From positions 1-52,249 of the IMG/VR virus record IMGVR_UViG_3300044823_000078: 52,249 bases of DNA; one strand, 5' to 3'. The DNA is from a virus. Numbering within the stretch: the first letter of the stretch is position 1; each line of letters opens with the position of its first letter. Shown here one piece after another: positions 4,550 through 44,638 of the stretch. Below the pieces are notes generated by a model, which was not told where the DNA came from, did not search any database, and was given only the letters and a program-made list of their open reading frames with translations. Both the position numbers and the translations under genes were made by a program.

Positions 4550-5236
4550 ATGGACTTAATTGAAAACCAGGATTACGTTTTTGTAAAAGGGCACGGAATA
4601 AAACATCCACCCTTCGGCCACTACCTTTTATGCAGCAACGATGATGGGAGCAAAAGGAATGCCGTCGTTCCGTATATGGATGGCTTTAAGCTGCTTAACT
4701 TTTTACCGACCGATACGGTCGTTGACATCGGCGCTTACTGCGGAACATTCTTTTGCTTTGTTGATAAGTTTCGAGTTGATAGGGTTGATTTTTACGAGCC
4801 AACCATGCGCGCCTTTTATATTGCCAGCATGAATGCGGCTCGTTGTAAAAACAAAGTAGTCGGCCATCATTCAGCAATAGTCGCCGGAATTAAGCCAGTA
4901 ACTGAGTTTTATATTTCGCCAGGCATCGGTGTTACGAATAGGCTTTGGCCGGCGAGCAAGTCGCGCAAGGTCGTTATCAGCGCAACCCAATATTCCCGCG
5001 CCGTTAAAAATGCAACGGTGGTAAAGATTGATATTGAGGGTGGCGAGTATAACCTGCCGCTTGTCCAGCCGAGTCTGCGTCAAGCCTGTATTGATTTTCA
5101 TCCGATTCCTAGGAATAAACTTTGGACAGATGAGGCGGATAGTCGTATTGCAGAATTTGAAGCTGCCGGATTTACGTGCCTACTGCGCCCGACATGGAAA
5201 AATGGATGGAGCCGGGTTGCTGTTTTACGAAAATAA
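4550..5236 (+). CDS. FkbM-like SAM-dependent methyltransferase
   Basis: 228 residues from ATG 4550. The frame is open further upstream, but that part is a shadow of the helicase tail. The motif DTVVDIGAYCGTFFCFVD (~60-77) is a Rossmann SAM-binding loop, followed by VDFYEP at the second strand, and VKIDIEGGEYNLP matches the FkbM-family IDVEGxE motif. FkbM-type enzymes usually methylate sugars or small molecules, so with the glycosyltransferase at 14312 it could modify glycans. No strong ribosome binding site is visible. Confidence 0.75.
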   Translation: MDLIENQDYVFVKGHGIKHPPFGHYLLCSNDDGSKRNAVVPYMDGFKLLNFLPTDTVVDIGAYCGTFFCFVDKFRVDRVDFYEPTMRAFYIASMNAARCKNKVVGHHSAIVAGIKPVTEFYISPGIGVTNRLWPASKSRKVVISATQYSRAVKNATVVKIDIEGGEYNLPLVQPSLRQACIDFHPIPRNKLWTDEADSRIAEFEAAGFTCLLRPTWKNGWSRVAVLRK

Positions 5237-5301
5237 CTTACTTAATATCATCTGCCCAATTTGAACTTCCAAAAATTCCCCACTTAATATAAAGTCCTTT
5301 T

Positions 5302-5520
5302 ATGAAAGTAAAAAAACCCAAAACCACATCGGGCTTTCATTGCTACCTGCCGAACGAAACAGTCCAGATGCTCAAGCAGGACTCTATCCATTTCAACAAA
5401 ACCACTTCGGAAATCTGCGCAGCTATTTACCGGACTCACTTTGCCTTTAAGACTGCGGAGCGGGCAATCGTCTATAAACTTATCCCGAAGAAAACCATTG
5501 GCAGAAAGGTGGTCGTATGA
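5302..5520 (+). CDS. Small hypothetical, possible ribbon-helix-helix protein
   Basis: 72 residues. The pattern GFHCYLPNETVQMLKQDSIHFNKTTSEICAAIYRTHF (basic strand, then two helices) resembles ribbon-helix-helix DNA-binding proteins, but this is only a shape match. It ends in an ATGA overlap with the next gene and is preceded by a ~65 bp gap after the methyltransferase. Confidence 0.5.
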   Translation: MKVKKPKTTSGFHCYLPNETVQMLKQDSIHFNKTTSEICAAIYRTHFAFKTAERAIVYKLIPKKTIGRKVVV

Positions 5521-5726
5521 TTTACATCGGACTTTCAATCGTAGCCTTCGTTTATATTGTTGCAATCCTTGCGTTAAAACATGCACCATTTCCCGAGCCG
5601 CGCGACCTGGGTTACCGTGCCGACTCGGTGCGGGCAGGAAAGCTGCCGGCAGGTTCGGTTCCTAACGTGGCCGAACCTGCCACGGATTTTATAGTTGATG
5701 AAGCCCATCACCCAAAGGGTTATTGA
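5517..5726 (+). CDS. Single-pass membrane microprotein
   Basis: 69 residues with an N-terminal membrane helix (MIYIGLSIVAFVYIVAILALK), then a soluble Pro-rich tail ending DFIVDEAHHPKGY. The helix resembles the microproteins at 31107 and 32106 (MIIIGLL..VA..). The end resembles CVVDESHHPN near the start of the 42688 protein. Function unknown; the topology fits a small inner-membrane protein. It starts in an ATGA overlap and overlaps the nuclease gene by ~29 bp. Confidence 0.6.
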   Translation: MIYIGLSIVAFVYIVAILALKHAPFPEPRDLGYRADSVRAGKLPAGSVPNVAEPATDFIVDEAHHPKGY

Positions 5727-6861
5727 TTTTATGAATCGAAATAACGTCCTGACCGCCTCTCGGATGAATGCCGAGATGTCCTGCTCCCGGAAGCATTACT
5801 GGGGCAATGAAGTCGGCCTGACTAAAACTGAAGTCGGCGTTGCCTTACGCATCGGCTCCGCTTGGGCGCGTGCAATGGAAGCCCGGTGGCATGGCAAGAC
5901 TTACGAGGCGGCATTACTTGAAGCCATCCCGGACGGGATAGACCTAAATGCCTATGATTGCGCAGTAGTCTCAGCCCTGCTCGCTGCTTACTACGAAGTG
6001 TATGGCCGCAACGAGAAAGTCGGAAAGCTGCATCCTGAAGTTGAAATCCCACCACGCAAACTTGGAGTCGGTGACTTTATTGTGCGCGGAAAGTTGGACG
6101 GCCTTGGCTCATTAAAGGATGGTCGCTCAGTTATTATCGAATCCAAAACAACTTCTGCACGGCTCGATGCCTCATCTGATTACTGGCTCCGGCTATCGTT
6201 CAACCTTCAAGTGTATCAATACTTGGTCGAGGCTCGGCAGATGGGCTGGGATGTGGCCGTGATATTCTATGACGTAACCCGCAAGCCGATGATTCGTCCA
6301 TGCGAGATAAACAACCTTGACCAAAAGGGATTGAAGATTGTCGTGGATAAAAATGGAAAGAGAATTTATGCGACTAAAAAAATCAAAACTGGAAAAGGAA
6401 AGACAGCGAGAGTTCGAGAAGTTGAAGACCGAAATAAGCCAAGGCAATCTGCGGACGTATCAAAAGGTTGGGCTGTTAAATCTCATACGGAAACTCCGGA
6501 CGAATACTGCGACCGGGTTTACAAGGATGCACTTGCTCGTCCAGATTTTTACTTCGCGCGTCGGGAAATCCCTGTGATAGACCAACAGCTTGTAGCTTTC
6601 GAGCTACAACGTGAAGCGATTGCCCGACGTATCCTGCGCCAGCGCGAAGATGAGGCCGGGCTGGTTAATCCTGAAGACGCATGGCCGCGTAACGTCTCTG
6701 AGCACACTTGCAATTTCTGTTCCTACAAATCATTTTGTCTAAGCAACATTCACCCAAACATAAACAACCCACCGGAAGGTTTCGTCATACGCGACCACAA
6801 CCCGGAACTTGAAAGGATAGAACCATGCGAATCCGGCTCACCGAACGAACCCGCTGCGTAG
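5698..6861 (+). CDS. Cas4/AddB-type PD-(D/E)XK nuclease with Fe-S cysteines
   Basis: 387 residues from ATG 5698 (a TTG precedes it). The catalytic pattern is D134 in GKLDGL, E148 and K150 in VIIESKTTS, followed by the RecB-motif helix LQVYQYLVEAR. Cysteines C29, C338, C341 and C347 (CNFCSYKSFC) match the one-plus-three arrangement that binds a 4Fe-4S cluster in Cas4 and AddB nucleases. The likely role is ssDNA or end resection in phage recombination with the annealing-type ATPase at 7523. Here the cluster and nuclease core look intact. Confidence 0.87.
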   Translation: MKPITQRVIDFMNRNNVLTASRMNAEMSCSRKHYWGNEVGLTKTEVGVALRIGSAWARAMEARWHGKTYEAALLEAIPDGIDLNAYDCAVVSALLAAYYEVYGRNEKVGKLHPEVEIPPRKLGVGDFIVRGKLDGLGSLKDGRSVIIESKTTSARLDASSDYWLRLSFNLQVYQYLVEARQMGWDVAVIFYDVTRKPMIRPCEINNLDQKGLKIVVDKNGKRIYATKKIKTGKGKTARVREVEDRNKPRQSADVSKGWAVKSHTETPDEYCDRVYKDALARPDFYFARREIPVIDQQLVAFELQREAIARRILRQREDEAGLVNPEDAWPRNVSEHTCNFCSYKSFCLSNIHPNINNPPEGFVIRDHNPELERIEPCESGSPNEPAA

Positions 6862-7022
6862 TCAAGCAGCCGAACTATTCAATTCCAGCCAAGACTCACG
6901 CCGAGTTCAAGGCCATCGTTGAAAGCCTTTACCCGGACTTCGGCCTAGTCTTTACGAAGATGAAAGCCCGCGTCGAGCCGTTTAGTCTAAGCAGAATCAA
7001 ATTAACCTGGAAACCAATATGA
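6825..7022 (+). CDS. Small hypothetical protein
   Basis: 65 residues, basic, no recognised motif. It overlaps the nuclease gene by 37 bp and its TGA overlaps the next start (ATGA at 7019). Supported only by coupling and coding-like spacing. Confidence 0.5.
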   Translation: MRIRLTERTRCVVKQPNYSIPAKTHAEFKAIVESLYPDFGLVFTKMKARVEPFSLSRIKLTWKPI

Positions 7023-7147
7023 ATCCACAACATCGAATCAACAAAAAATCAAACCGGGAACGTCGCCTGCTTAAAAACTCAAAAGCCATGATGGATAAAC
7101 ATGAGCACGACAAGAACCGGGTTCAACCGAAAGACAAACAAATATGA
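7019..7147 (+). CDS. 42-residue basic microprotein
   Basis: An ORF whose ATG overlaps the previous stop and whose TGA overlaps the next ATG at 7144, so it sits exactly between two coupled genes. The product is highly charged (HRINKKSNRERRLLKNSK..) and could bind nucleic acid. Function unknown. Confidence 0.5.
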   Translation: MNPQHRINKKSNRERRLLKNSKAMMDKHEHDKNRVQPKDKQI

Positions 7148-7518
7148 GACTATCAAACGCAAAAGAGTATCTGCCATTTGTGCAAGCTGCGGCGGAAGGT
7201 AAATCAATACAGTGGAGGCCCGCCGGTAATAATTCGTGGGAAGACGCTGCCCGTTTAAACTTTGATGAGGGTTATGAGTTCCGCATCAAACCCACCCCAA
7301 CCCTGCGTCCTTGGAGACCAGAAGAAGTGCCGGTTGGGGCGCAAATACGGAGAACTATTTGTCCGATTGATAGGAATATAATTTCTGGAGTTTCGGCCTT
7401 AACAATTAGGTTGGCTGGCGACTGTTATCCTAATAAAATGAACCTGTGCAATTTAGATGAGTTTGAACACTCCCTTGACCATGGAAAAACCTGGCTTCCC
7501 TGCGGTATTATTGAATAA
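7144..7518 (+). CDS. Phage hypothetical protein (EGKxIQWRP family)
   Basis: 124 residues. The N-terminal half (FVQAAAEGKSIQWRPAG..W.DAARLNFDEGYEFRIKP) is a pattern seen in many uncharacterised phage early proteins. No catalytic motif is visible. It starts in an ATGA overlap and ends 4 bp before the AAA ATPase gene. Confidence 0.65.
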   Translation: MRLSNAKEYLPFVQAAAEGKSIQWRPAGNNSWEDAARLNFDEGYEFRIKPTPTLRPWRPEEVPVGAQIRRTICPIDRNIISGVSALTIRLAGDCYPNKMNLCNLDEFEHSLDHGKTWLPCGIIE

Positions 7519-7522
7519 CATT

Positions 7523-8347
7523 ATGCCATCACCTAAAATGCCCACACGTCCACCCGCTCCGCCGCAAAGTCAGCAGGCTAAATCTAAAGTTTCCTTTGCG
7601 CCAATCCCGGCCACGAAAGGCCATCGAGTCCTGCTCTACGGCCCAGGTGGTATTGGCAAGACGACCCTGGCCTGCCAAGCTCCTGGAACGGTAGCTGTAA
7701 TTGATGCCGACGAATCCCTCGGCATCCTGAAGTCCCAACTGACTGCGCAGGAAATCCAAATCCCGAAACTTGTTCCAGCATCCAACTGGGCCGAAGTCCG
7801 CACAGCCTTGCAATCGGACGGATGGAACGGAATCAACACTATCGTAATTGATACCGCCACGAAGCTCGAGGAGTGGTGCGTGGCGCATATGATTAAAACC
7901 GTAAAGCATGAAAAAGGCCACGTGGTCCATTCGATTGAAGACTACGGATTTGGAAAAGGTTTCCAGTTTGTCTTTGATACGTGGTTGAATATCCTCGGAG
8001 ACCTTGACCGTCACGTCCGCGCGGGCAGGAATGTTATCTTGGTTGCGCATGACTGCGTAAGTAACGTGCCGAATCCCAATGGTGAGGATTGGATACGCTA
8101 TGAGCCTCGGCTCCAAGACCTGAAGAGTGGTAAGGCGTCTATCAGGCTCCGCTGTAAGGAATGGTGCGACCACGTTTTATTCGTAGGTTACGACGTGGCC
8201 GTAAAGGAAAAGAAAGCGCAAGGTTCAGGGACGCGCACAATGTACACGGCCGAGCTTCCATTCTGTATGGCCAAGTCCAGGACTACGAACGAGCAGTTTA
8301 ACATCGAACTTGGTCAGGAAAATCCCTGGGAGCAAATCATTAAATAA
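7523..8347 (+). CDS. RecA-like P-loop ATPase, Sak4/AAA_24 type
   Basis: 274 residues from ATG 7523. Walker A is LLYGPGGIGKTT (~36-47), a Walker B-like strand is TIVIDTATKLEEW (~108-120), and a later strand is NVILVAHD. This is the phage nucleotide-binding family that includes Sak4-type single-strand annealing ATPases. The likely role is recombination with the protein at 8713 and the nuclease at 5698. The N-terminus is Pro-rich (TRPPAPP), a looser version of the recurrent PPPRP peptide. Confidence 0.82.
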   Translation: MPSPKMPTRPPAPPQSQQAKSKVSFAPIPATKGHRVLLYGPGGIGKTTLACQAPGTVAVIDADESLGILKSQLTAQEIQIPKLVPASNWAEVRTALQSDGWNGINTIVIDTATKLEEWCVAHMIKTVKHEKGHVVHSIEDYGFGKGFQFVFDTWLNILGDLDRHVRAGRNVILVAHDCVSNVPNPNGEDWIRYEPRLQDLKSGKASIRLRCKEWCDHVLFVGYDVAVKEKKAQGSGTRTMYTAELPFCMAKSRTTNEQFNIELGQENPWEQIIK

Positions 8348-8353
8348 AAAACT

Positions 8354-8653
8354 ATGAAATCATCTATAAACCACCAAAATAAAATCCGTATTACTATTGC
8401 GGCAATTGCGGCGTCACTTACACCAACAATCAATCGGGTTAAGTCCGCAAGGGCGGCTGTATTAAAGCTGCTCGGTAAAATCCCCGAAGGAACGGCAACA
8501 TATAAAACGCTATGCCCGCGCGGTGCGGGTTCTGGACCTGGTAGCCATACCTTTGAACAGCAAACTGAAGTTGGCTCGCGACGGTTCGCTCGCCGTCGCC
8601 AAAAGTTTATCAAGGATTTATCCCATACTGAATGGGGCCGGCAGTTTAATTAA
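8354..8653 (+). CDS. Hypothetical basic protein
   Basis: 99 residues. N-terminal helices (IRITIAAIAASLTPTINRVKSARAAVLKLL) are followed by a basic Arg-rich segment. No family recognised. It lies between the ATPase and its likely partner and probably shares their transcript. Confidence 0.5.
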   Translation: MKSSINHQNKIRITIAAIAASLTPTINRVKSARAAVLKLLGKIPEGTATYKTLCPRGAGSGPGSHTFEQQTEVGSRRFARRRQKFIKDLSHTEWGRQFN

Positions 8654-8712
8654 CCAATCTCGGCTCGCGAGCCAAGAGCAAACAAAAACAACAAACGAAA
8701 GGTAAAAAGCAA

Positions 8713-9408
8713 ATGAGCAAAAACATTCCAAACGCCGGGACATATCCGGCCAAGACTACCGGTCAAATGGTCGTCTATGAAACTGAAAAGGGCGCGCTGT
8801 GCGTAGCCATTCCCGTTGAGATAATGGGAAGTGAAGTGGCCTGGCGCGGCAAGCATACAGCAACCCTCGCCAAGCAGGACGGAACTTTGATGGCGCGTGG
8901 CATCCAAGACCTGAAGACCATCTTTGGTTGGGACGGTATTGACCCGTTCGCCTTGCAGGATATTGAAGTCGGCGCGCACGAGTTTGAAATCGTGGGAGAG
9001 CATCAGGAATACACTCCGCCCGGAGATGATGCCCAGCCGGTCATGACGTTCAAGATTGTGTTCATGAATCCGCCCGGCGGCTCGTCCAAGATGCCAGCCA
9101 TGCTGGAAGGCAATGACGCGAAGGCAATCCGCACGAAGTATGCCTCGAAGTTCAAAGCCTTGTCCGGCGGCAAGTCCGCATCATCCGGCCCGCCGTCACG
9201 CAAGTCCACCGGAGCTGTTGCGCGCACTTCTACGCAAGAGGAAGTCTGGACGGCATTCGCCGCTGCGCACGAAGGCGAAGACGAAGGCGAACTCGGCAAG
9301 CAATACTGGGCCGCCGTTGCCGAAGTCGAAGGCACCGAACCTGATGCCGTCACCGGAGAACTCGACCTGAAACAATGGGGCGAAGTCGCCGTGAAGCTTG
9401 AGGTTTAA
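8713..9408 (+). CDS. Putative ssDNA-binding protein partner of the Sak4-like ATPase
   Basis: 231 residues. A beta-rich N-terminal ~130 residues (GTYPAKTTGQMVVYETEKGALCVAIPVEI, HEFEIVGEHQEY, MTFKIVFMNPPG) is followed by a Ser/Pro linker and an acidic C-terminal region (EGEDEGELG). The shape and position next to a Sak4-like ATPase match the SSB-like DUF669/DUF2815 proteins of other phages, but direct homology is not visible. Confidence is for the gene; the role is inference. Confidence 0.6.
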   Translation: MSKNIPNAGTYPAKTTGQMVVYETEKGALCVAIPVEIMGSEVAWRGKHTATLAKQDGTLMARGIQDLKTIFGWDGIDPFALQDIEVGAHEFEIVGEHQEYTPPGDDAQPVMTFKIVFMNPPGGSSKMPAMLEGNDAKAIRTKYASKFKALSGGKSASSGPPSRKSTGAVARTSTQEEVWTAFAAAHEGEDEGELGKQYWAAVAEVEGTEPDAVTGELDLKQWGEVAVKLEV

Positions 9409-9586
9409 TTACCGGCAAAATCATACACGACGCCGAACATTGTAGAATTATGAACCTGAAACAAAGTTGTCAATCTGCAATGCAGGCTTCCGGTAATAGT
9501 CCTGAGATTCGCTGCCGTATGATAAGACTTTAAACTATTGATTACGGAGCAGTTGGCAGACCTGTAAAACTGCCACTAATTTAATT
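9409..9586 (+). other. Intergenic stretch with one short ORF and a hairpin
   Basis: 178 bp without a clear gene. It contains a 27-codon ORF (9450-9533) of doubtful value and a 5-bp hairpin (GGCAG/CTGCC) at about 9555-9574 that looks like part of a tRNA but lacks acceptor and T arms. AT-rich sequence precedes the next ATG. Confidence 0.4.
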
Positions 9587-9778
9587 ATGAAAAAACAACA
9601 ACCATTCAAGTTGACGAAACAGTGGAAGCGACTGCGGGGCGGCATGGTGATAAAAGACGGAGACCGATTCAAGACGGCGCTCGGATGGTTGCTTGCTACT
9701 CCGTGGCCGGACCATAAGGTTGGCGATTTTCACTACCCGGACGGAAGTCCGTTCATTTACATCCGTAAAATATCATGA
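9587..9778 (+). CDS. Small hypothetical protein
   Basis: 63 residues, basic N-terminus and aromatic C-terminal half (LGWLLATPWPDHKVGDFHYPDG). No family recognised. Its TGA overlaps the next ATG at 9775. Confidence 0.5.
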   Translation: MKKQQPFKLTKQWKRLRGGMVIKDGDRFKTALGWLLATPWPDHKVGDFHYPDGSPFIYIRKIS

Positions 9779-10614
9779 ACCAACAACTTCAACCGCTCCA
9801 GTGGAAACGATTTAAGGAGCTTGAACAAATCTGCGTCAATGGCCGTGCCGTATTCTACATGGTCGGCATGGCGCTGAATGAAATCAAGCAGGAAAAGTTT
9901 TACGAGTCGAAAGGGTTTGATTCGTTCCCGGAATACTGCGAATCAATTGGCTACTCAAGGCGCCACTGCGAGCGGTTAATCCTCGGAGCAAATGTCGTTA
10001 GCCAACTGCCTGATAATCTGCGAAGGCTTATTCAAGGTGAACACGCCGCCCGTGCCCTACTTAATATCCCGGCCAGCCTTCGTGTGGCCGCCATAGTTAG
10101 GGCTACCAGCGCCGCCACGAAGCCGGCCACTGCAAAAGCTATAAAGCAAGCCGGACCACCCCCAAGGCCACTACGGTCCAACCAGAGCGTTTTACCGCCT
10201 AAACCTGCCCCAAACCGACCTAAACCCTTGCAGCTACAACAAAAAAGTGGACCAATTGGTCCAAAAGACCGAACCGGCCTTCCCATCCCTAAAGAGGTCC
10301 TACCGACCTGGGAGCGTCGCGGAGAAATCGCCACCCTGCTTACCGACCTGTCGAAGGTCAGGACTTCCTTGCGCAAGGCTAAGGAATCCGGCGATAACCT
10401 TTTTGCTGAAGTGGACTTCACGGACAACGAGGCCAAGCTCTCGATGGTTTACGAAGATTTACAAACAGCCATGCCTCACGCCGTCTGTCCGGAGTGTAAC
10501 GGCAAGATAAAGGTGGCCGACTGCGGAGTGTGTAGTGGGCGTGGATTCGTCTCTGAATTTTATTGGCGGGTAAAAGTCCCGAACGACATCAAGGAAATCA
10601 CAGGAAGAAAATGA
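9775..10614 (+). CDS. DNA-binding-like protein with C-terminal zinc ribbon
   Basis: 279 residues. The N-terminal ~110 residues resemble phage and plasmid DUF3102-like helical proteins (VGMALNEIKQEKFYESKGFDSFPEYCESIGYSRRHCERLI). The middle is Pro-rich and contains AGPPPRPLR, one of the recurrent PPPRP sites. Near the C-terminus CPECNGKIKVADCGVCSGRGF is a DnaJ-like four-Cys zinc ribbon. A 17-bp stretch containing a perfect palindrome, repeated at 21998, lies within the gene at 10248. A role in DNA binding or replication is inference. Confidence 0.65.
   Translation: MNQQLQPLQWKRFKELEQICVNGRAVFYMVGMALNEIKQEKFYESKGFDSFPEYCESIGYSRRHCERLILGANVVSQLPDNLRRLIQGEHAARALLNIPASLRVAAIVRATSAATKPATAKAIKQAGPPPRPLRSNQSVLPPKPAPNRPKPLQLQQKSGPIGPKDRTGLPIPKEVLPTWERRGEIATLLTDLSKVRTSLRKAKESGDNLFAEVDFTDNEAKLSMVYEDLQTAMPHAVCPECNGKIKVADCGVCSGRGFVSEFYWRVKVPNDIKEITGRK
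10248..10264. promoter_or_regulatory. Second copy of the GGACCAATTGGTCC palindrome
   Basis: TGGACCAATTGGTCCAA occurs inside the coding region of the zinc-ribbon protein (9775-10614) and matches 21998-22014. It encodes GPIGPK in a Pro-rich linker, where sequence is free to vary, so the palindrome could be a kept site. Confidence 0.5.
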
Positions 10615-13860: not shown

Positions 13861-14328
13861 ATGAGCCAACCACCACCGAGGCCGAATAAATTAACAGGGC
13901 CGCCGCCGAGGCCGCCGAAAAAGTTCCAGTTACATATTCAGAGGGACTTAATCGAGCCGGCCACTGAAGATGGTCAAGCTCCAGGCTATACGTCGAAGAT
14001 TCTAGCTCCGATTTACAAGCCGAGCGGAAAGAAGCCGGACATACTAGAACTGCTTAACCAGTCGAAAGCGAAAGCGTTAATTGGGAAGATTCTAGCGTCG
14101 AAGGTTTCTGAAGCCGAAAAGAAGTTCCTGGTCGAGGCGGCAAAGCGGCATAATGTTTTTTACTATAAGCTAATTGCAAATTATTATGCGCAGTCCTCTC
14201 CGGAAATGCAGGCATTAATGGAACAGTCGGCACTTGTCATTATTGACTTCGATAAGGCAATCGAAAGCGGTTACATAGATTTTAACGAAGAGGTTGAGGA
14301 GTTATACAAACGTGAAACAGGCCACTGA
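13861..14328 (+). CDS. Hypothetical protein with doubled N-terminal PPPRP peptide
   Basis: 155 residues. It begins MSQPPPRPNKLTGPPPRPPKK, two copies of the PPPRP peptide, then a mostly helical domain (SEAEKKFLVEAAKRHNVFYYKLIANYYAQSS). The family is unknown to me. It starts 3 bp after the helicase and its 3' end overlaps the glycosyltransferase start by ~17 bp. Confidence 0.6.
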   Translation: MSQPPPRPNKLTGPPPRPPKKFQLHIQRDLIEPATEDGQAPGYTSKILAPIYKPSGKKPDILELLNQSKAKALIGKILASKVSEAEKKFLVEAAKRHNVFYYKLIANYYAQSSPEMQALMEQSALVIIDFDKAIESGYIDFNEEVEELYKRETGH

Positions 14329-15430
14329 AAATTTCTGCATCTTTATTTTAAGTCGAGGCCGGCCCGACAGCATGGCAACGTGCAGCCTGCTTGAGCGGTA
14401 TGGATACGACGGCCCGCTCTTTATACTGTTAGATGAAGACGATAAGACGAGGGATGAATACCACGCCAGGTACGGAGATAAAGTCATCGTAATTAAAACT
14501 CCATCTGCGCAGAGCAATCTGGATAGCTTTGATAACTTCGGAAAACACGCAGTCCTGCACGGCCGCAATGTGTGTTTCGATATCGCCGAGTCGCTGGGTT
14601 ACAAATACTTTCTGCAACTTGATGATGATTATACTGGGTTTGGGTTTCGGTTTCCAGAACCGGAATTAAAGAATGTCCACGGCGGAATAAAGTGGTCGTG
14701 GGTTATGACTAGGAAAACACTTAACGAAGTAATTCGGGCAACGATTCGGTTATTTATTAAAACTGGAGCATCTAGTATCGCCTACTCTCAGGGCGGCGAC
14801 TGGATGTCGGCAAGTTCGGGAAGCTCTGCATCGTTTTCGTTCCGTAAGTGCATGAACTCGTTCTTTTGCTCAACAAGCCGAAGGTTTAATTTCATCGGAC
14901 GCGCAAACGAAGATGTAAATACCTATACATTACTCGGAAGTCGCGGGCTTTTATTTCTAACCTTACCGCATTTCCAAGTATGCCAGCGCACGACCCAAAA
15001 ATGTAAAGGCGGCACCACAGACGTATATCTTGATGAAGGCACATATGTTAAAAGTTTTTATTCGATACTCTGCGCGCCAAGTTGTGTTAAGATAAAAATC
15101 ATGGGCAGCGCGCGGCGAAGGTTGCATCATAAGATTAACTGGGATACAGCTGTTCCAATGATTCTAAGTGAACAGCATAAAAAGGAAAAGGGCGGCGCAC
15201 GTGAAATAGTTAACGAATGGCCGGAAACTTCTGAATCGGATTTATTTACCAGAATGCAGTATCGTGATGTTTTAATTAAACCGAAAGTGGTTATAAAGCG
15301 CCGAATTAAAACCGCTGAACAACTTTTACCGAAGAAAAAAAGCATAGAGATTACGACAGAATTTGTAGACCACTTTGCCGGCCGTGGATTTTATCGTAGT
15401 CCGAAAGCCGATATCCAACCAAACTTATGA
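14312..15430 (+). CDS. GT-A-like phage glycosyltransferase
   Basis: 372 residues from GTG 14312, with GAGGA a few bases upstream; the frame is also open from TTG 14294. FILSRGRPDSMATCSLLERYGYDGPLFILLDEDD, then DNFGKHAVLHGRNVCFDIAESLGYKYFLQLDDDYTGFGFR, match a phage glycosyltransferase family. DDD would be the metal/nucleotide-sugar motif. Relatives include glycosyltransferases linked to hypermodified bases (TET-associated type), but no TET/JBP-like dioxygenase is visible here. The substrate could be DNA, a virion protein or a host glycan. Confidence 0.68.
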   Translation: MKQATENFCIFILSRGRPDSMATCSLLERYGYDGPLFILLDEDDKTRDEYHARYGDKVIVIKTPSAQSNLDSFDNFGKHAVLHGRNVCFDIAESLGYKYFLQLDDDYTGFGFRFPEPELKNVHGGIKWSWVMTRKTLNEVIRATIRLFIKTGASSIAYSQGGDWMSASSGSSASFSFRKCMNSFFCSTSRRFNFIGRANEDVNTYTLLGSRGLLFLTLPHFQVCQRTTQKCKGGTTDVYLDEGTYVKSFYSILCAPSCVKIKIMGSARRRLHHKINWDTAVPMILSEQHKKEKGGAREIVNEWPETSESDLFTRMQYRDVLIKPKVVIKRRIKTAEQLLPKKKSIEITTEFVDHFAGRGFYRSPKADIQPNL

Positions 15431-17024: not shown

Positions 17025-17386
17025 AACCCGATGCCTACATGCCGATGTATTGGGCGGAGTTTTGGGCAGCAGTGGATGGCCAGCCCGATAACATTATCCT
17101 CGGTTATGAACGGGCCATGTCGCATTACTGGCAGCACAATCATTGCGCAGGCTTAAGGGACGACTCTGAATTTCTCCGCAGGCTGTGCCGCATTGAACGT
17201 GAAGATTGGGAAGCGGCAATGGCCATTATATTCGATAACGACAAATTCTTTACGCTCGGCGAGGATAACTTATGGCATCAGAAACGGTGCCGACAAGAGT
17301 GGGACTGGGCGATTGAAAAATACAATAAGGCGGTCGAGAATGGAAAGCTCGGCGGATACCGGAAACACAAACGAAGGAGACAATAA
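17021..17386 (+). CDS. DUF1376-like replication-region protein
   Basis: 121 residues. DAYMPMYWAEFWA..ILGYERAMSHYWQHN..LRDDSEFLRRLCRIEREDWEAA..FF resembles DUF1376 (YdaU N-terminal) domains of phage replication proteins. The usual C-terminal extension is absent. Its stop TAA (17384-17386) lies in the left end of an attC-like structure, so the C-terminus may have been trimmed when foreign sequence arrived. Confidence 0.68.
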   Translation: MKPDAYMPMYWAEFWAAVDGQPDNIILGYERAMSHYWQHNHCAGLRDDSEFLRRLCRIEREDWEAAMAIIFDNDKFFTLGEDNLWHQKRCRQEWDWAIEKYNKAVENGKLGGYRKHKRRRQ

Positions 17387-17507
17387 CGAATCAAGCTCTG
17401 CCACGAGTGGTGGGCGGAGCGCAACAAATGAAACCAAACCGTAAAATTAACGCGATGCCGCCAACTGGAAGGGACACCACTCGTTGTGCAGCAGCGCGTT
17501 GTTAGGA
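17382..17507 (+). repeat. attC-like inverted repeat 1
   Basis: Left arm TAACGAATCAAGC..ACGAGTGGTG (17384-17412) pairs with right arm CACCACTCGT..GCGCGTTGTTA (17475-17504). The inner 10 bp are perfect and TAAC/GTTA boxes lie at the ends. The right box GTTAGGA (17501-17507) is close to the integron R' consensus GTTRRRY. The middle ~60 bp is unpaired. This geometry is that of an integron attC site; the left box is the less canonical one. Confidence 0.68.
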
Positions 17508-17515
17508 AGCGTCTT

Positions 17516-17749
17516 ATGGCAGACATAAAAAATAAAGCACCTGAAAATGTAATCGGAAAATACTTCGTGGACTGTGCCGAATGTATTGACTGTGACCTAT
17601 GCAATGAAACCGCCCCGAATAATTTTGGCCGCAACAGCGACAAGGCATATTCATTCGTCAGCAAGCAGCCGACAACGCCAGAGGAAGAAAAGCTCTGCCG
17701 TGAATCAAAGGAAATATGCCCAGTAGAGGCCATCGGGGTAGCTTCCTAA
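17516..17749 (+). CDS. Single-cluster 4Fe-4S ferredoxin
   Basis: 77 residues from ATG 17516. Cysteines C20, C23, C26 and C29 (DCAECIDCDLC) and a distant C68 followed by Pro (EICPVEA) match a mono-cluster ferredoxin; C-x2-C-x2-C plus CP are the ligands and C20/C61 are extra. It would carry electrons in host metabolism and has no obvious phage role. It lies between matched cassette boxes (17501 and 17741), and its stop TAA is part of the CCTAACG box. This suggests arrival as a gene cassette. Confidence 0.85.
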   Translation: MADIKNKAPENVIGKYFVDCAECIDCDLCNETAPNNFGRNSDKAYSFVSKQPTTPEEEKLCRESKEICPVEAIGVAS

Positions 17750-17794
17750 CGACAAGCTGAGGCGTGCTGTGACCGACAACCAACAAAGGTAAAT

Positions 17795-17956
17795 ATGACA
17801 AATGATAATTGCAAAACTGAGAAAGTGTGGTGCTACGTTTCGCTTGTGGCCCTTGGTGTAACTTTGGGCTGCATCATCACAGGAAACGGCTCTAGTGCAA
17901 TCGCCGCTTCCATTATTTTCGCAACGTCGGTCTATGGGTATGAGCACCAAACCTAA
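17795..17956 (+). CDS. 53-residue membrane microprotein
   Basis: After a short polar start, two hydrophobic stretches (VWCYVSLVALGVTLGCIITG and SAIAASIIFATSVYGY) suggest one or two membrane helices. Family unknown. It overlaps the next ORF by 23 bp inside the cassette patch. Confidence 0.45.
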   Translation: MTNDNCKTEKVWCYVSLVALGVTLGCIITGNGSSAIAASIIFATSVYGYEHQT

Positions 17957-18113
17957 TTCGCCGATAAAACGCCGATATGCAGAGGGATGGTGCGAAGGAA
18001 AATACTTCTGCATCCAAGTCGCCGCCGGAGAAACGATGACGCAACTTAAAAAGCACTTCCGAGAAACGGTGGGGCATGATCGTATAAATGTGTGGCGGTG
18101 GTTTTGGGCCTAA
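17934..18113 (+). CDS. 59-residue cassette ORF, HTH-like
   Basis: From ATG 17934 (ATG 17940 also possible). A basic protein KRRYAEGWCEGKYFCIQVAAGETMTQLKKHFRETVGHDRINVWRWFWA whose last part could be a helix-turn-helix, a weak impression only. The stop TAA (18111-18113) is inside the GCCTAAC box of the attC-like site that follows, as is common for integron cassettes. Confidence 0.5.
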   Translation: MGMSTKPNSPIKRRYAEGWCEGKYFCIQVAAGETMTQLKKHFRETVGHDRINVWRWFWA

Positions 18114-18217
18114 CGCTGCCCGATGAGCCACGTCGGACTAATGACTTTATGAAACCTGAACTCGAAGTGAATAAAACTGGACGCCCAACCGACGTTGGCT
18201 CCGGCGACTGGTTAGGT
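18108..18217. repeat. attC-like inverted repeat 2, complete
   Basis: Outer boxes GCCTAAC (18108-18114) and GTTAGGT (18211-18217). Inner arms GAGCC-ACGTCGG (18125-18136) and CCGACGT-T-GGCTC (18189-18201) pair over 12 bp with one unpaired T. Two complementary box pairs, a single extrahelical base and an unpaired middle are the defining shape of an integron attC. The extra base is in the right arm, which would suit a minus-strand orientation, while the ORFs around it point to plus. The minus strand reads NQSPEPTSVG here. Confidence 0.72.
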
Positions 18218-18251
18218 GTCCGGTCAACTGAAACAAAATCGAACATAAAAT

Positions 18252-18452
18252 ATGGACTCAACTAACTCACTAACTGTCTGCGAGGTGAACGGTAAAAGCC
18301 GCTCGGAACTCGAAGAACTGCCGCGCTGCGAAATCCGCAGTCATTGGAACGACAACGATCTCGTCGTCGTGCAAATCCTCAACCAAGTCGTGACGCTGCG
18401 AGCGCGTGAAATCATCGCTGCCGTCTCAAACTCAACCAACATCCCGCGCTAG
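18252..18452 (+). CDS. 66-residue cassette ORF, hypothetical
   Basis: LTVCEVNGKSRSELEELPRCEIRSHWNDNDLVVVQILNQVVTLRAREIIAAVSNSTN reads like a compact alpha/beta protein. Family not recognised. It lies between GTTAGGT (18211) and GCCTAAC (18456), complementary boxes apart from one G-T wobble, so it has the layout of one integron cassette. Confidence 0.55.
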   Translation: MDSTNSLTVCEVNGKSRSELEELPRCEIRSHWNDNDLVVVQILNQVVTLRAREIIAAVSNSTNIPR

Positions 18453-18498
18453 GATGCCTAACGACGGAGCTATGCCGCGCTGACAAACCAAAAACGAT

Positions 18499-19056
18499 AT
18501 GGGAAATATACCCCCAAAACCCCTCCTAAAAAGGCTAGTTTTAAGGCCAACTAAAAGTAGCGACCCTAGTAGCCACCCTACTAGCTTATCTACGTTTGCA
18601 GCTACTAGCTCCACTAGTAGCAATAAGAGTATAAGACAGGGCTGCGCAAGGAAAAAGGTTTGGCTCTTTGCTTTTAGCCCACCCCCACTCTCCTTGCTCC
18701 CAAAGCATCTATCCGTAACCCAGCCAGCATCCGTCCCGTTCTGGGAACATTCACTGCTTCGTAAAATGGATTTATTATTAAGCAGTCCGATTGGATTCAC
18801 GTATCTGTCCGTATTAAGGAAGCGGTCGTTGGATTATCGGAGGGCAGGTGCATCTGAATCCTGGAGGCTGGCCGCACGCGACTTGTATCACGCGCTGGGA
18901 TTCGATTTGAGCCGTCCGATGCCCGAGAAGCCTAAAAGGTTAGGGGCGGGGCTAATGAGGCCGCCAGTACGCGTCCAGGCTCCAAGAATAAGCGGTGTGG
19001 TGCCGCCCCGTCCGGACAAACGCAAGGAATCTTTTACTGGAAAGGTTTCAAGCTAG
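18499..19056 (+). CDS. Doubtful ORF over a palindrome-rich region
   Basis: 185 residues. The first ~75 are low-complexity Ser/Thr/Pro/Leu sequence that crosses two CTAG-rich palindromes. The last ~70 (SLDYRRAGASESWRLAARDLYHALGFDLSRPMPEKPKRLG..VVPPRPDKRK) look more like real protein and carry PPRP-type peptides. Either a real gene with a disordered N-terminus, or a shorter gene downstream of a DNA site. It lies just before the small terminase. Confidence 0.4.
   Translation: MGNIPPKPLLKRLVLRPTKSSDPSSHPTSLSTFAATSSTSSNKSIRQGCARKKVWLFAFSPPPLSLLPKHLSVTQPASVPFWEHSLLRKMDLLLSSPIGFTYLSVLRKRSLDYRRAGASESWRLAARDLYHALGFDLSRPMPEKPKRLGAGLMRPPVRVQAPRISGVVPPRPDKRKESFTGKVSS
18531..18625. promoter_or_regulatory. 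Cluster of CTAG-containing palindromes, candidate packaging or operator site
   Basis: Two perfect inverted repeats with 5-bp loops: CTAGTAG-CCACC-CTACTAG (18566-18584) and GCTACTAG-CTCCA-CTAGTAGC (18601-18621), with further CTAG copies nearby. CTAG is rare elsewhere. The position upstream of the small terminase gene is where lambda-like phages keep cos and terminase-binding sites. Function is inference; operators are an alternative. Confidence 0.5.
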
Positions 19057-22120: not shown

Positions 22121-22582
22121 GTGGATTCTAATACAGACGACTTGGCTGCGTTCCTTGACCGCGCTTGGAATAATGCTAAGGATGGTGCCAATGCCCTGCC
22201 GGAACAACTTTCCATTGAACAACAGGCTGCGTTAAATTTCATTGCCCCGATAGGTTCGGTCATTTCGGTTTCTAAAAACTCTACTTCCCAATCTTCCGGC
22301 GGATATAATCCAGGCAACCTTACGCTGCGGCAGGTGGTCGGAATCTGGACCAAGCTGATTGAGTTGTATGATGAAGTCAAAGCAAGGATAGTTTCGGCAG
22401 CGGCCTGTGATTCGGTTGTGCTTCCTGACGGATTTGATTTTGATGGCCCAGTGTATCAAGTAATGAAAAGCACTCTAAAAGTTTCAGGCCGGGTCGCTAC
22501 TAGTCCAGACTTGCGAGACCTGCGCGTTCCACTTTCTCGAACCGAGACTCTTGAATTTAATGTGGTCGGTTATATTCCATGA
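22121..22582 (+). CDS. Hypothetical protein between terminase and portal
   Basis: 153 residues starting at GTG 22121. N-terminus DLAAFLDRAWNNAKDGANALPEQLS, a later helix LRQVVGIWTKLIELYDEVKARI. In lambda-like phages the small head-joining protein gpW sits here, but the sequence does not show it. It overlaps the portal gene by 4 bp. Confidence 0.6.
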   Translation: MDSNTDDLAAFLDRAWNNAKDGANALPEQLSIEQQAALNFIAPIGSVISVSKNSTSQSSGGYNPGNLTLRQVVGIWTKLIELYDEVKARIVSAAACDSVVLPDGFDFDGPVYQVMKSTLKVSGRVATSPDLRDLRVPLSRTETLEFNVVGYIP

Positions 22583-24381
22583 GAAAAACCACACAACATA
22601 AATCTCGTAAACCAAGCCGAACGCGCATGATTCAAAATGAGTCTCGTGCGATTGCTTTACTTTCAATTACAAACCCACGCCAGGTTCAGTTTGCGCCGCG
22701 TAATGAGCGCAGGTTAGTTGAGCGTGCGGTGAAAACTCTTTGCTTCGGTTCAAAGCCTCACCTTGTTCGTAACTGGTATGAATCCGGGAATCCTTATTCG
22801 GACGGTTCGCGCTCATACTTGCCGGAAGTCTTAACCGATGCACGCTACGACCAGAATCAAATCACTCGGCGTGAAGCAATGCGCCGGATGCGTTACTGGG
22901 AGCAAAATTCAATCTTCGTAAAACGTGGACTTGATGTTAGCGAGCAGTATGTAATCGGCACGCATTGTCCAGTGGTAACTTCACTTTCCACGAATACGGA
23001 TTGGGCGGCTCAGGCTGAGATTGTTTTCCACGAGATGTGCCAGAATGCCGGACTCGATGGTGAATCCATTTTCTCATTACTCTGTGTTGGCCATCGTCGG
23101 AAGAAAGTTGACGGAAATGTTCTGTTCGTTCAGACGAGCAGGCCCGGCTCGGTTACTATTCGGCGCGGAACAAAATACGAAACCCTACTCGGAGTGATGC
23201 GGCCCTGTTACCAGATGGTTGAATCCCATCGCGTCGGGACTCCGTTCGCCATGTGGCAGGAAGAAGGCCAAGACATTTTCGATGGTATCGAATACGGAAT
23301 TATTTCGACTCAGCTTCCCGGCGGACAATCGGTTGAACATAAAGTCAAGACCTGCTACTGGGTGAATGAATCTGCAAACGTCTTTTCGGTTCAACAGGGT
23401 TTCACCAAGGTGCCGGTTCAGTTCGCTTATTATGCTGCGCAGGCTCATCGGGTAAACGAACCGCGCAGCATGACTGATTTTTACGCCGCAGAGCCGACAC
23501 TTGCATTGCTCGAAGACATGCTCAAGTTGGAAATGAAAGCGCAGGAAGTCCAAAGCGATATTTCGTTGTTCATTACGAATGGGGCCGGGCAGGAAGTGAA
23601 GCCTGGCATGCAATCAACCTTGGCCGCTCTCGGTGTGAAGGTAACTGCCGGCGCGAACGGTGCTAATCCGGTGGTGACTACGAACGACATCGAGAAAGTC
23701 AAAACCATTTATGAAAAAATCTGGGGTGGGCGCACGGCTGTTGGTCGAACCGGAGACACACTTGCGACCGTTGCTCCGAATCGTCCTGCTGAAGCGACCC
23801 TTAATCTATGGAACTTCCTTATTGATTCGTTTTGCGCCGCTAGTGGCTTTCCCCGTTTGCTTATCTTTCCCAAATCCCAGATGAAAGGGCAGGGCACGGA
23901 AGTCCGCGCCGAAATTGAAGCTGCCAATGCGATGTTCATCAAGGAGTTTAACCAAATCTGGAAACCATTTATCCATCAAGTCTGGGAATACTTTATGGGC
24001 TGGGCAATCCGAAATGATGAGCGTGTGAAAAATGCTCCAGCGGATTGGATGAACATAGATGTTTCCCATCCGCGCTCGATAGTGGTTGACCTTGGTTATG
24101 CTACTGCCGAAACAATTTCATTCTTGGCCGCAGGCCTTATTAACCTTCACCAAGTCGCCCAACAATTCGGGACGACACGTTCTAAAATCATAGCCGGGGC
24201 GGTCAAGGATGTTTTTGATATAAAGCTTGCGTGTCAGGAAATGGCCAAGCTTCCGCAGTATAAAGGAATTGAAGTGGATGCCGCCGAAATCCGGGCAAGC
24301 CTTGGCGATGCTGCGCAAAAGTTGGCATCGAGTAATGCGGCTAGCGAAACATCGGCAATATCCGCGAATAGTGAATTATGA
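22579..24381 (+). CDS. Portal protein, lambda family
   Basis: 600 residues, close to the family length. The N-terminus is basic, followed by NWYESGNPYSDGSRSYLPEVLTDARYDQNQITRREAMRRMRYWEQNSIFVKRGLDVSEQYVIG, the start pattern of lambda gpB-type portals (many use DAR..). Later GNPVFVQTSRPG-like and CAASGFPRLLIFPKSQMKGQGTEVRAEIEAANAMFIKEFNQIW segments match the portal core and C-terminal helix. It forms the dodecameric DNA gate. Overlaps the protease gene by ATGA. Confidence 0.9.
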   Translation: MRKTTQHKSRKPSRTRMIQNESRAIALLSITNPRQVQFAPRNERRLVERAVKTLCFGSKPHLVRNWYESGNPYSDGSRSYLPEVLTDARYDQNQITRREAMRRMRYWEQNSIFVKRGLDVSEQYVIGTHCPVVTSLSTNTDWAAQAEIVFHEMCQNAGLDGESIFSLLCVGHRRKKVDGNVLFVQTSRPGSVTIRRGTKYETLLGVMRPCYQMVESHRVGTPFAMWQEEGQDIFDGIEYGIISTQLPGGQSVEHKVKTCYWVNESANVFSVQQGFTKVPVQFAYYAAQAHRVNEPRSMTDFYAAEPTLALLEDMLKLEMKAQEVQSDISLFITNGAGQEVKPGMQSTLAALGVKVTAGANGANPVVTTNDIEKVKTIYEKIWGGRTAVGRTGDTLATVAPNRPAEATLNLWNFLIDSFCAASGFPRLLIFPKSQMKGQGTEVRAEIEAANAMFIKEFNQIWKPFIHQVWEYFMGWAIRNDERVKNAPADWMNIDVSHPRSIVVDLGYATAETISFLAAGLINLHQVAQQFGTTRSKIIAGAVKDVFDIKLACQEMAKLPQYKGIEVDAAEIRASLGDAAQKLASSNAASETSAISANSEL

Positions 24382-41989: not shown

Positions 41990-42109
41990 ATGTTAAATAC
42001 TTCTCTTTCCCTCCAAGGGAGAAAAAGTATCGGTTCCAACACCGCAAGGTTGGCGCAGAAAAGTCCGTCCCGGCCGATTGAAGAGGAAGCGAAAACCTCT
42101 AGGCTTTAA
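41990..42109 (+). CDS. 39-residue leaderless ORF in the leader
   Basis: ATG 41990 lies at the predicted transcription start. The peptide MLNTSLSLQGRKSIGSNT..RPIEEEAKTSRL is basic with no known family. The frame continues past its TAA (42107) with no further stop until the TGA that overlaps the next gene's ATG at 42346, so a 119-codon frame has only one internal stop. It may be a leader peptide, a gene broken by TAA, or chance. Confidence 0.35.
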   Translation: MLNTSLSLQGRKSIGSNTARLAQKSPSRPIEEEAKTSRL

Positions 42110-42345
42110 AAGGATTGGCGGAACTTTAGGACTGCGGAAAAAAACTTCCCTCGAAAGGGGACACGGCAACCGACGAATGCGAAAGCCAATAAGGTTGCAG
42201 CCGACTCCGCGAATGTGACTACTCGATTAGCTTCAAGTTCACCACCGGAACGCACCGGCAGCCGAACACGAAGCCCATTGAACTTCGTGTTTCGACTTCT
42301 GCCGCCACAAACTTCGACGGCAGAAAACCGAAACACAAAACGACT
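41990..42345 (+). ncRNA. Hairpin-rich leader RNA candidate
   Basis: About 350 nt between a strong promoter and the first early gene. Clear stems: CCAAC/GTTGG (~42036), AGAGG/CCTCT (~42082), CCC/GGG around tcgaaa (~42148), GCAACC/GGTTGC (~42167-42198), CGAACACGAAG/CTTCGTGTTTCG (~42263-42294) and TTCTGCCG/CGGCAGAA (42297-42325). AGTCC/GGACT may pair at longer range. No known RNA family recognised; a protein reading of the same region is given separately. Confidence 0.55.
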
Positions 42346-42612
42346 ATGAAAAGTAAATCTCAAACCCAAACAGTTAACAATACTTCCTGGACGCCGGACC
42401 AAATAAAAGGGTTCGGATATATCGGCCGCACGGTAAATAAATGGAGAGGCCGGAGCGTTGCTCTTTATAACCACCCGTCAGACCCTGCGCGGGTTATTTC
42501 TATTGGTGTAACATTTGATGGGGACGTGGTTGTAATTGCAGACGAGTCCCGCTCGGATTGGTGCATGGCGCTGGCGGCCATTTCTGAGGGTAGGGTTTTA
42601 ACAACAGAATGA
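42346..42612 (+). CDS. Hypothetical early protein
   Basis: 88 residues: GFGYIGRTVNKWRGRSVALYNHPSDPARVISIGVTFDGDVVVIADES looks like a small beta-rich domain. First clear gene after the leader, preceded by AAAACGACT. Function unknown. Confidence 0.58.
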   Translation: MKSKSQTQTVNNTSWTPDQIKGFGYIGRTVNKWRGRSVALYNHPSDPARVISIGVTFDGDVVVIADESRSDWCMALAAISEGRVLTTE

Positions 42613-42687
42613 TTCCCTCGTTCGTCCCATCCTTTGCGGTGCGGGCGACCGAAGCAATTACGCTTCACAAAATAAAACGACTAAATT

Positions 42688-43194
42688 ATGAAAACGACTA
42701 AAACATTAAAACTCTCCGGCAACATGATTGCAATTCCCATAGACAGCGCAACTGGTGACTGTGTAGTTGATGAATCGCACCATCCAAACCTAAACAAGAC
42801 GGCCAATAATCCAGACGGCTTATGCTACGCTCGTCACATCTACGACCAGCAGCAGGCGCAACGCGCAACGCCCACGCCGTGGCAGCTGGTTATTGACCAT
42901 CACCGCATTACTGGCGCGGACGGCTCAACAATTATCTACGCGAATGGACTTGGAAATTCGACAGCAAATCTCTCGAAGGCTGTTCAGGCCGTGAACGAAC
43001 ACGCTGCGCTTGTGGCGGTGGCGGAAGCGGCGAGGTCGTTGGAGTCACAAGTTGTCTCAGTTATAATGTATGATGACCACGGCGAACAAGGTCAAACAAC
43101 TGACCGCAATGAGCCTCACCGCCGACTACTACGCCAAGCCCTCGCCCAACTCGCCGCCGTTCGCGGCGGGAAAGGAATCTCTCCCGGCTCTTAA
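42688..43194 (+). CDS. Phage hypothetical with LAQLAAVRGGK C-terminus
   Basis: 168 residues. CVVDESHHPN near the start, TPWQLVIDHHRITGADGSTIIYANG in the middle, and an ANLSKAVQAVNEHAALVAVAEAARSL helix. This is a common phage early-gene architecture with unknown function. The 3' third contains the 127-bp repeat shared with the window start. In unit 1 the true end is probably the version at 128-158; the version here continues GISPGS. Confidence 0.65.
   Translation: MKTTKTLKLSGNMIAIPIDSATGDCVVDESHHPNLNKTANNPDGLCYARHIYDQQQAQRATPTPWQLVIDHHRITGADGSTIIYANGLGNSTANLSKAVQAVNEHAALVAVAEAARSLESQVVSVIMYDDHGEQGQTTDRNEPHRRLLRQALAQLAAVRGGKGISPGS
43019..43145. repeat. 127-bp exact direct repeat, copy 2
   Basis: Identical to bases 1-127. 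To the right, base use changes towards the GC-rich unit 2. The part from ~43138 (aagccctcgcccaactcgcc..) also recurs at 44139 with ~41 identical bases. Confidence 0.95.
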
Positions 43195-43287
43195 TTTGCG
43201 TTCATCCGGGAGCGGCGGTTGCGCCGAAGGGCAACCCAAGCGCAGCCGCCAATAATTTAAAACAAAACCAAAACAACAAACGAAATT

Positions 43288-43857
43288 ATGTGCAAATTCA
43301 AATCTGGAATCGTGGTGTGCGACGAGCGCGAAAAAGGCGGATACCGGCTGGTGATGTCTCCGTGGACAGAATCCCACAGCGAACTGGAAACAATCTTCAA
43401 TCTCCGCGAGGGCAAGAGTCTCAATTTTGCCAAGGTGGAATTTTCGCCCGACGACATGGCGGAAGCTTACCTGGTCGAGAAATACAAGCTGAACATTGAC
43501 GAACACCGAACGCCGGAATGGTTCGACGACGAAATGAAAGAGCGAGTCACAGAAGAGATGACCGATTACATCAAAACAATCATTGTTCACGGCGACGTTG
43601 AATTGTTGATTGGTGGCCAATTCATCATTGCGCCGGACGCCAAAATCCAATGCGCCAAAGCGATGGTGATAAACGCGATGTGTGGCGGCACCTTGACCGC
43701 GATGCGGGGCGGCACCTTGACCGCGATGTGTGGCGGCACCTTGACCGAGATGTGGGGCGGCACCTTGACGGCAATCAAAAAATACTTCGACGGATTGATT
43801 GGCAAAATCAACTCAGGCGCAACCGTCATCAAAGACGAACGCAAGGAGAAGAAATGA
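43288..43857 (+). CDS. Hypothetical with GGTLTAM solenoid repeats
   Basis: 189 residues. An alpha/beta N-terminal domain (~1-130) is followed by four 8-residue repeats GGTLTAM-R/C/W- (~131-165) encoded by 24-bp near-identical units. Such GGTI-type repeats in phage proteins suggest a small beta-solenoid. Function unknown. It overlaps the next gene by ATGA. Confidence 0.62.
   Translation: MCKFKSGIVVCDEREKGGYRLVMSPWTESHSELETIFNLREGKSLNFAKVEFSPDDMAEAYLVEKYKLNIDEHRTPEWFDDEMKERVTEEMTDYIKTIIVHGDVELLIGGQFIIAPDAKIQCAKAMVINAMCGGTLTAMRGGTLTAMCGGTLTEMWGGTLTAIKKYFDGLIGKINSGATVIKDERKEKK
43680..43775 (+). repeat. 24-bp tandem coding repeat
   Basis: Four copies of atgtgtggcggcaccttgac-type 24-bp units with small differences (gatgcggggc, gatgtgtggc, gatgtggggc). 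Copies keep frame and vary mainly at one residue (C, R, C, W). Confidence 0.88.
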
Positions 43858-44189
43858 AACCACACAAGCGATTAATGGCCGCGATGAAAGCGGCGAAACA
43901 AATGCGTGGGAAGATTCTATTGAAGGATTGGCTTGCGCAACAACCCAAGAGCACGCGCAAAGGAGTCGCACGCGGAACGAAAAAAGCTGAGCCACCGCCG
44001 ACTCGTGACGTGAACCGCGACAGCGGAACGGACAGCGCCAACGGCGGTTGGCTCCGGCGACTTTACGGACACAACTCAACTTTTAGCTATGGCAACAAAG
44101 CTATTGTGAAAGGCGTTGACTGCGTTGCCGTTCGCGAAGCCCTCGCCCAACTCGCCGCCGTTCGCGGCGGGAAAGGAGGCGCGAAGTGA
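43854..44189 (+). CDS. Basic hypothetical with LAQLAAVRGGK C-terminus
   Basis: 111 residues from ATG 43854 (ATGA overlap). Lys/Arg-rich N-terminus, then CVAVREALAQLAAVRGGKGGAK. The last ~14 codons are almost identical in DNA to the 42688 gene although the rest differs, so the tail behaves as a shuffled module. Overlaps the next gene by ATGA. Confidence 0.58.
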   Translation: MKPHKRLMAAMKAAKQMRGKILLKDWLAQQPKSTRKGVARGTKKAEPPPTRDVNRDSGTDSANGGWLRRLYGHNSTFSYGNKAIVKGVDCVAVREALAQLAAVRGGKGGAK

Positions 44190-44587: not shown

Positions 44588-44638
44588 TTTTTTGTTCTTT
44601 GAAACTTTGTTCTGCGGCGACGTGGCCGGAAGGTCTTT

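Follow-up and report, generated by a model that had tools for sequence, protein, structure and literature searches.

An integrase-less array of integron-like cassettes in a tailed-phage contig and a putative phage integron family with reversed gene polarity

The phage contig and the location of the array

The viral record IMGVR_UViG_3300044823_000078 is 52,249 b in length, linear and possibly incomplete. The whole of this stretch is referred to here as the window. The first ~42 kb of the window is tailed-phage coding as determined by Pfam and PHROG matches. The phage genes include those for helicases, a PD-(D/E)XK nuclease, a DUF1376 protein, a small terminase, a Clp-type protease, a GpA-type large terminase and a lambda-type portal. 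An array of small ORFs and hairpins at positions 17381–18480 is located between the DUF1376 gene and the terminase genes (Table 1), and the flanking DUF1376, GpA terminase and portal genes identify its setting as a phage genome. The DUF1376 gene ends in a TAA that falls within the sequence CAATAA↓C (17381–17387; the arrow marks the putative point of exchange here and below). This sequence is the 5' box of the first hairpin and apparently marks where the array was inserted on its left side. Two other viral contigs, L002 and L040, are closest to the window at its terminase and helicase loci, respectively; neither covers the array region, and an empty site was therefore not observed.

Other parts of the window show additional features. 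The ORF that follows the array (18499–19056, 185 aa) has a repetitive, serine/threonine-rich N-terminus, and only its residues from 50 on are present in L002, whose contig begins there. A TET-associated glycosyltransferase (TAGT) gene is present at positions 14294–15430 (Pfam E 1.9e-27), which suggests that the phage DNA may be hypermodified. Near 43 kb the GC content steps up from ~0.49 to 0.60 (window positions 42000–52249). A second portal gene, Portal_Mu (44837–46744), and a Mu-like protease gene (48016–49452) are found in addition to the lambda-type portal gene (22579–24381). The GC step and the two portal types may mean that two distinct phages are arranged in tandem or that the contig is chimeric.

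A contig with two unlike parts, differing in GC content and portal type, is also what a mis-assembly would produce, and host or integron DNA could have been joined to a phage contig in this way. However, the array is far from the ~43 kb join and lies between co-directional phage genes, and neighborhoods of DUF1376 gene and array recur in independent contigs. An assembly error as the origin of the array is thus very improbable.

Table 1. Features of the array and of the outlying attC site in the window (E-values of covariance model R1 are rough)
Feature	Position	Strand	Basis
DUF1376/primosomal-protein-like phage gene	17021–17386	+	Pfam DUF1376 30.2 bits; PHROG primosomal protein
attC1, complete, degenerate 5' box CAATAAC	17381–17507	+	R1 35.7 bits, E 5e-9, match 17381–17505
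Ferredoxin cassette, left end, GTTAGGAAGC (3' box + 3 bases)	17501–17510	+	10/10 complementary to 17741–17750
Ferredoxin, single 4Fe-4S cluster type, 78 aa, cargo	17513–17749	+	Pfam Fer4_13 69 bits, E 6e-19
Ferredoxin cassette, right end, GCTTCCTAAC = GCTTCCTAA↓C	17741–17750	+	Exact reverse complement of 17501–17510
Half attC (5' box + L arm TTCCTAACGACAAGCTGAGGCGTGC; 3' half lost)	17743–17768	+	5' start comparison
Small ORF, 53 aa, middle cassette	17795–17956	+	No family match (Pfam/PHROG)
Overlapping ORF, 72 aa	17895–18113	+	Stop = TAA of box GCCTAA↓C
attC3, complete	18108–18217	+	R1 67.6 bits, E 1.5e-19
Small ORF, 66 aa, cargo of attC3	18252–18452	+	Ends GTTAGGTGTCC / GGATGCCTAAC, 9/11 match
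Half attC (5' box + L arm GATGCCTAACGACGGAGCTATGCCGCGC; 3' half lost), right array end	18453–18480	+	Matches L027, L048
Decayed attC	43972–44068	+	R1 78.4 bits, E 4e-23; GC-rich Mu-like part of contig

attC sites and half sites in the window

Covariance model R1 was constructed from 18 attC sites, all from other contigs and none from the window. The seed consists of sites with GGCTCCGGCGACTGGTTAG, the 19-mer from the 3' half of attC3, which has exact matches in 15 stretches from other viral contigs; most of the 15 also carry the matching 5' half, GCCTAACnnnnnnAGCTGAGCCA. An exact 28-base attC pattern was too strict, and the 19-mer was used instead. Several of the related records are fragments. 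A search of Rfam gave chance matches only, as there is no attC family there.

R1 detects three sites in the window, all on the plus strand. The preliminary description of this DNA had reported two attC-like structures, and both are confirmed: attC3 and attC1 score 67.6 and 35.7 bits, compared with 13.5 bits for the best background match. The boxes of attC3 are GCCTAAC and GTTAGGT, and the inner arms are GAGCCACGTCGG and CCGACGTTGGCTC, each 12 bp with one extra T in the 3' arm, in agreement with the 12-bp arms and extra base described before. Over 124 bp, attC1 shares 95% identity with L010:801–924, a site in a different viral contig, and the identity ends at both boxes. The third site, at 43972–44068, was absent from the preliminary description and was found by R1. 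Its L stem and center are intact but both outer boxes are mutated. The ORF at positions 43650–44189 reads through this decayed site, such that attC DNA encodes ~30 residues of the predicted protein.

Two half sites are present in addition. The one at 17743 has a 5' start, AACGACAAGCTGA, that is shared with a complete attC in L024:18834–18941. The half site at the right end of the array (box at 18456) has a 22 bp exact match in L027:15606–15627, and its L arm is the same as in a complete attC in L048:7678–7784. The missing 3' arms of both half sites were searched for downstream, and none matching was found.

The hairpins have the R''-L''...L'-R' layout of attC sites with complementary R boxes, the 5' box of attC1 being degenerate. 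With two complete attC sites 0.6 kb apart, two half sites and no intI, the array has the form of a CALIN. Genes for intI and sites for attI were looked for across the window and are absent; it does not hold a complete integron.

Hairpins are numerous in phage genomes, and transcription terminators or chance inverted repeats might be mistaken for attC sites. Several results contradict such an origin. The combination of boxes and arms at the observed grade was not found in any of 60 dinucleotide shuffles of the window, and the R1 matches have rough E-values of 1e-19 and 5e-9. When the 18-site alignment was folded, 11 of 20 predicted pairs displayed compensatory changes. In an enlarged set of 75 attC sites, 91.7% of pair cells are paired and compensatory changes occur in every L-stem pair; the covariation score is 0.514, versus 0.158 after shuffling and 0.04–0.08 when the alignment is slid. 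Related phages carry such sites linked to intI and attI. Terminators and chance repeats are refuted by the covariance and cassette-end tests, and their probability is negligible. R1 also detects four class 1 attC sites (44, 33, 28 and 22 bits; aadA1, 44.4 bits), and therefore the hairpins represent integron attC structure. The window sites are attC structures by sequence and folding; their recombination by an integron integrase is putative. The proposal of integron-like cassettes without an integrase in a phage genome thus survives the covariance-model test.

Cassettes, cargo genes and matched ends

In arrays built from these attC sites, a 3' box matches the box of the next cassette over ~10 bp, with 93–100% agreement per position (n = 43). 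The 3' box of an attC does not match its own 5' box, and a class 1 array behaves likewise. The ferredoxin gene in the window has one such pair of ends. The complementary boxes noted before at 17501 and 17741 agree at 10 of 10 positions, and the stop codon of the gene (17747–17749) is the TAA of the box. The small ORFs had been described as ending at or next to the boxes, and this also holds for the other two cassettes: the stop codon of ORF 17895–18113 is likewise a box TAA, and that of ORF 18252–18452 is 3 bases short of its box. The ferredoxin and ORF 18252 cassettes each consist of one small gene with matched ends (10/10 and 9/11); in the middle cassette, one end is missing.

The 4.8-kb viral contig L010 provides a comparison. 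Its attC1-like site is followed by a different gene with its own 10-bp pair, GTTAGGAGAC / GTCTCCTAAC. The matching of ends, together with a site in L010 that is bounded at the boxes, shows that the cassettes are real. Since attC1 is joined to another gene in L010, an attC and a gene are not a strict travelling pair. The ferredoxin has no close relative in viral contigs. A blastn search with the array or with attC sites of the family against plasmid and isolated-phage records gave nothing.

Related phages with complete integrons

An R1 scan of whole records revealed 19 attC sites in G011, 18 in G012, eight in G004 and seven in G009. The contig G013 has a TerL 62% identical and a small terminase 34% identical to those of the window, and it carries a DnaB-like gene, an IntI gene and three attC sites. 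G004 has portal, capsid, terminase and integrase genes in one contig. Its IntI is closest to VchIntIA (PDB 2a3v), with 158 bits versus 86 bits for the next protein, XerA, and it retains the integron-specific region. G028 and G029 have integrases that are 84% identical, plus attC sites. The integrase of G030 matches TIGR02249 with 275 bits, which is over the curated cut-off, and this contig has three attC sites. When the DUF1376 protein was used as the sole query, attC sites or arrays were found in four of five newly fetched phage contigs, one of which (G030) has the integrase. In L041, the nearest relative that extends past the DUF1376 gene, a half site of the same kind as those of the window is present one ORF downstream of that gene.

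In G004 and G013, phage hallmark genes were confirmed for each contig by itself, and in the pairs G028 with G029 and G030 with G034 for the pooled contigs; G012 has only a weak large-terminase match. TIGR02249 also matches ordinary tyrosine recombinases in control genomes, and because of this the IntI assignment rests on the match to VchIntIA, the integron-specific region and the neighboring attI and attC sites.

Two of the records have large arrays. G012 (IMGVR_UViG_3300046484_000054), a 71.6-kb viral record, has at least 18 attC sites over 8 kb (55958–64276) and no integrase. G011 (IMGVR_UViG_3300048821_000195; L018/L019) has its 19 sites in two blocks near the contig ends and on opposite strands. 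One cassette interval of G011 looks the same in G012.

As judged from these comparisons, related phages have one attC family in common, and several of them have their own predicted intI and attI. The preliminary description had proposed capture by a host integron. A host chromosomal integron could have supplied the window cassettes in trans by way of the host integrase, the phage integrons being acquired separately from the same hosts. The window has neither intI nor attI, which is compatible with such a source. By its terminase, the nearest isolated phage is Verrucomicrobia phage P8625, although the relationship is weak (24% identity), and the consensus attC, when translated from its minus strand (NQSPEPTAVGAVSSAIAVHVTSRRWLSFFR), presumably resembles small ORFs in Verrucomicrobia genomes. 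A Verrucomicrobiota host of the window phage is a lead only. Related phages, however, hold the whole integron machine at a similar genome position, including intI, attI and attC arrays of the same family, and the family was not found in plasmid or isolated-phage records. A host source is thus not favored and appears unlikely, and a source other than a captured class 1-type integron is preferred.

Reversed gene polarity of the phage cassettes

The extrahelical bases, the central spacer and the terminal loop of an attC direct which of its strands recombines, and hence the orientation of the cassette (PMC8946536). The phage attC sites have two unpaired extrahelical bases in the L stem (alignment columns 117 and 125), and these are on the 3' half; in the canonical layout they are on the 5' half. 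The canonical layout was verified on an annotated class 1 array, where the extra bases are on the gene-proximal half of the attC, the first gene begins next to attI and the genes are directed away from intI. R1, which is oriented with the phage genes, reads the four class 1 attC sites on the strand opposite the annotated genes. The match to the published attC of phage TJE1 is likewise on the strand opposite the genes.

In four contigs the phage attI abuts the last gene at its end, directly before intI. It has the sequence TAA↓CAGTTAATTGAACAA in G013 and G029, GAA↓CAGTTAATTGAACAA in G028 and TAA↓CAGTTAATTCAATCA in G004, and the genes to the left of attI differ among the four. A scan with the 17-mer of attI gave 31 stretches, and only those in known phage integrons adjoin an IntI gene. 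In G013 the gene end CTGCTACCAGCACGCCACGCCGAGCCGTCTAA is present twice, once followed by attI and once by attC, and the two copies diverge exactly after TAA. This doubled gene end looks like two products of one recombination. The coordinates of a gene end joined to attI and to attC in L021 are 6820–6850 and 8588–8620 (minus strand).

Gene direction was compared in 49 intervals between sites: 35 are forward, three are reverse and 11 are unclear. Cargo genes with domain matches (methyltransferases, PAPS reductase, ATP-grasp) run forward. An upstream ATG lies inside the preceding attC for 22 of 49 forward ORFs, which is an upper bound, as the first ATG was taken. In the related phages the cassette genes are downstream of an attC and point toward attI and intI; they do not have the canonical position, upstream of the attC and pointing away from attI. 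The polarity of the attC and the position of attI imply that the attC is upstream of the gene with which it travels.

In the ordinary orientation, a cassette is a gene plus the attC that follows it, with exchange at the 3' box, and the reversed extrahelical bases would be a harmless peculiarity. The period of the array and the matching of boxes fit both orientations, and the different genes after attC1 in the window and in L010 are compatible with the ordinary one. However, the ordinary orientation does not explain why attI touches a gene end and not a gene start in four contigs, or why the two copies of the gene end in G013 diverge precisely at TAA↓C. It also conflicts with the opposite-strand reading of class 1 and TJE1 attC sites by R1 and with the part that extrahelical bases play in directing the recombining strand (PMC8946536). 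The assignment of each gene to the following attC is probably wrong here, and the ordinary orientation is quite improbable.

Proposed origin of the window array

The best explanation of positions 17381–18480, with a probability of about 0.7, is an array of three cassettes that lacks an integrase, was derived from or fed by a phage-carried integron family with reversed genes, and is being fixed. It is also probable, though somewhat less so, that a tailed-phage lineage keeps its own, backward-built integron, in which attC is ahead of the gene, exchange occurs at the stop codon, and cassettes are traded among phages. Each attC would then double as the leader or start region of its gene, and genes, intI and phage transcription would be co-directional. 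The traded cargo would include methyltransferases, PAPS reductase-like proteins, ATP-grasp proteins and ferredoxin.

A phage IntI would insert folded single-strand circles with an attC at attI. Under the strand rule, and because of the positions of the extrahelical bases, the folded coding strand of the attC would be the recombining strand, with exchange at TAA↓C in the 5' box, i.e., at the end of the gene. A gene that is backwards in its cassette would thereby land co-directional with intI and with phage transcription. The cassette genes may be expressed by read-through from phage promoters farther upstream, often with starts inside the attC. Since the window cassettes lie at CAATAA↓C at the DUF1376 stop with neither attI nor intI, they would represent insertion at a secondary site or an array whose integrase part was lost; a donor in trans, host or phage, is also possible on this account. 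The half sites and mutated boxes suggest that the window cassettes are becoming fixed.

Comparison with known integrons

Integrons are known mainly from bacteria, where they serve to capture genes and where the folding of attC sets cassette direction for the attI promoter. If the reversed phage family is as proposed, it would suggest that the direction of the cassettes depends on who transcribes the array, and phages would gain a dedicated means of swapping accessory genes. The family also opens a direct test of the strand-choice rule. In such arrays, standard annotation, which pairs a gene with the following attC, is suggested to assign the wrong attC to each gene.

Cassettes in phages had been called rarely described. 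Published cases are few, but they exist: CALIN-bearing phages and temperate phages with captured bacterial integrons were reported, and five of six phage attC sites tested worked with IntI1 (Qi et al. 2023, PMC9892861). The window is similar to these in that attC sites and small cassettes are present in a tailed phage with no integrase in the record. It differs in the reversed polarity of genes relative to attC and in the half attC sites, and in that one attC family extends across related phages, several with their own intI and attI. Neither reversed cassettes nor integrons common to the members of a phage lineage turned up in a search of the open-access literature, which is weak evidence; the reversed architecture and the shared phage lineage look new.

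Virus Rctr41k (KX853513; L053) is another virus record with an IntI-like integrase beside attC-like sites. At positions 4680–10101 the integrase is followed by approximately five weak attC matches. Here genes and attC are oriented to each other in the canonical way and the cassettes follow intI, unlike in the window family. This virus is not named in the main text of the 2023 phage-integron paper (PMC9892861).

The phage IntIs resemble VchIntIA (PDB 2a3v) and IntI1, with 33–36% identity to IntI1, the catalytic residues conserved, and the integron-specific region before the HxxR motif as in known IntIs. They differ in being encoded by phages and in having the same direction as the cassettes; there is none in the window. 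The cassettes themselves share with class 1 cassettes (aadA1 etc., plasmid p1658/97) the R and L boxes, two extrahelical bases and ~10-bp matching ends. They differ in gene position: class 1 genes are upstream of the attC and point away from intI, whereas the genes of the phage family are downstream of the attC and point toward intI.
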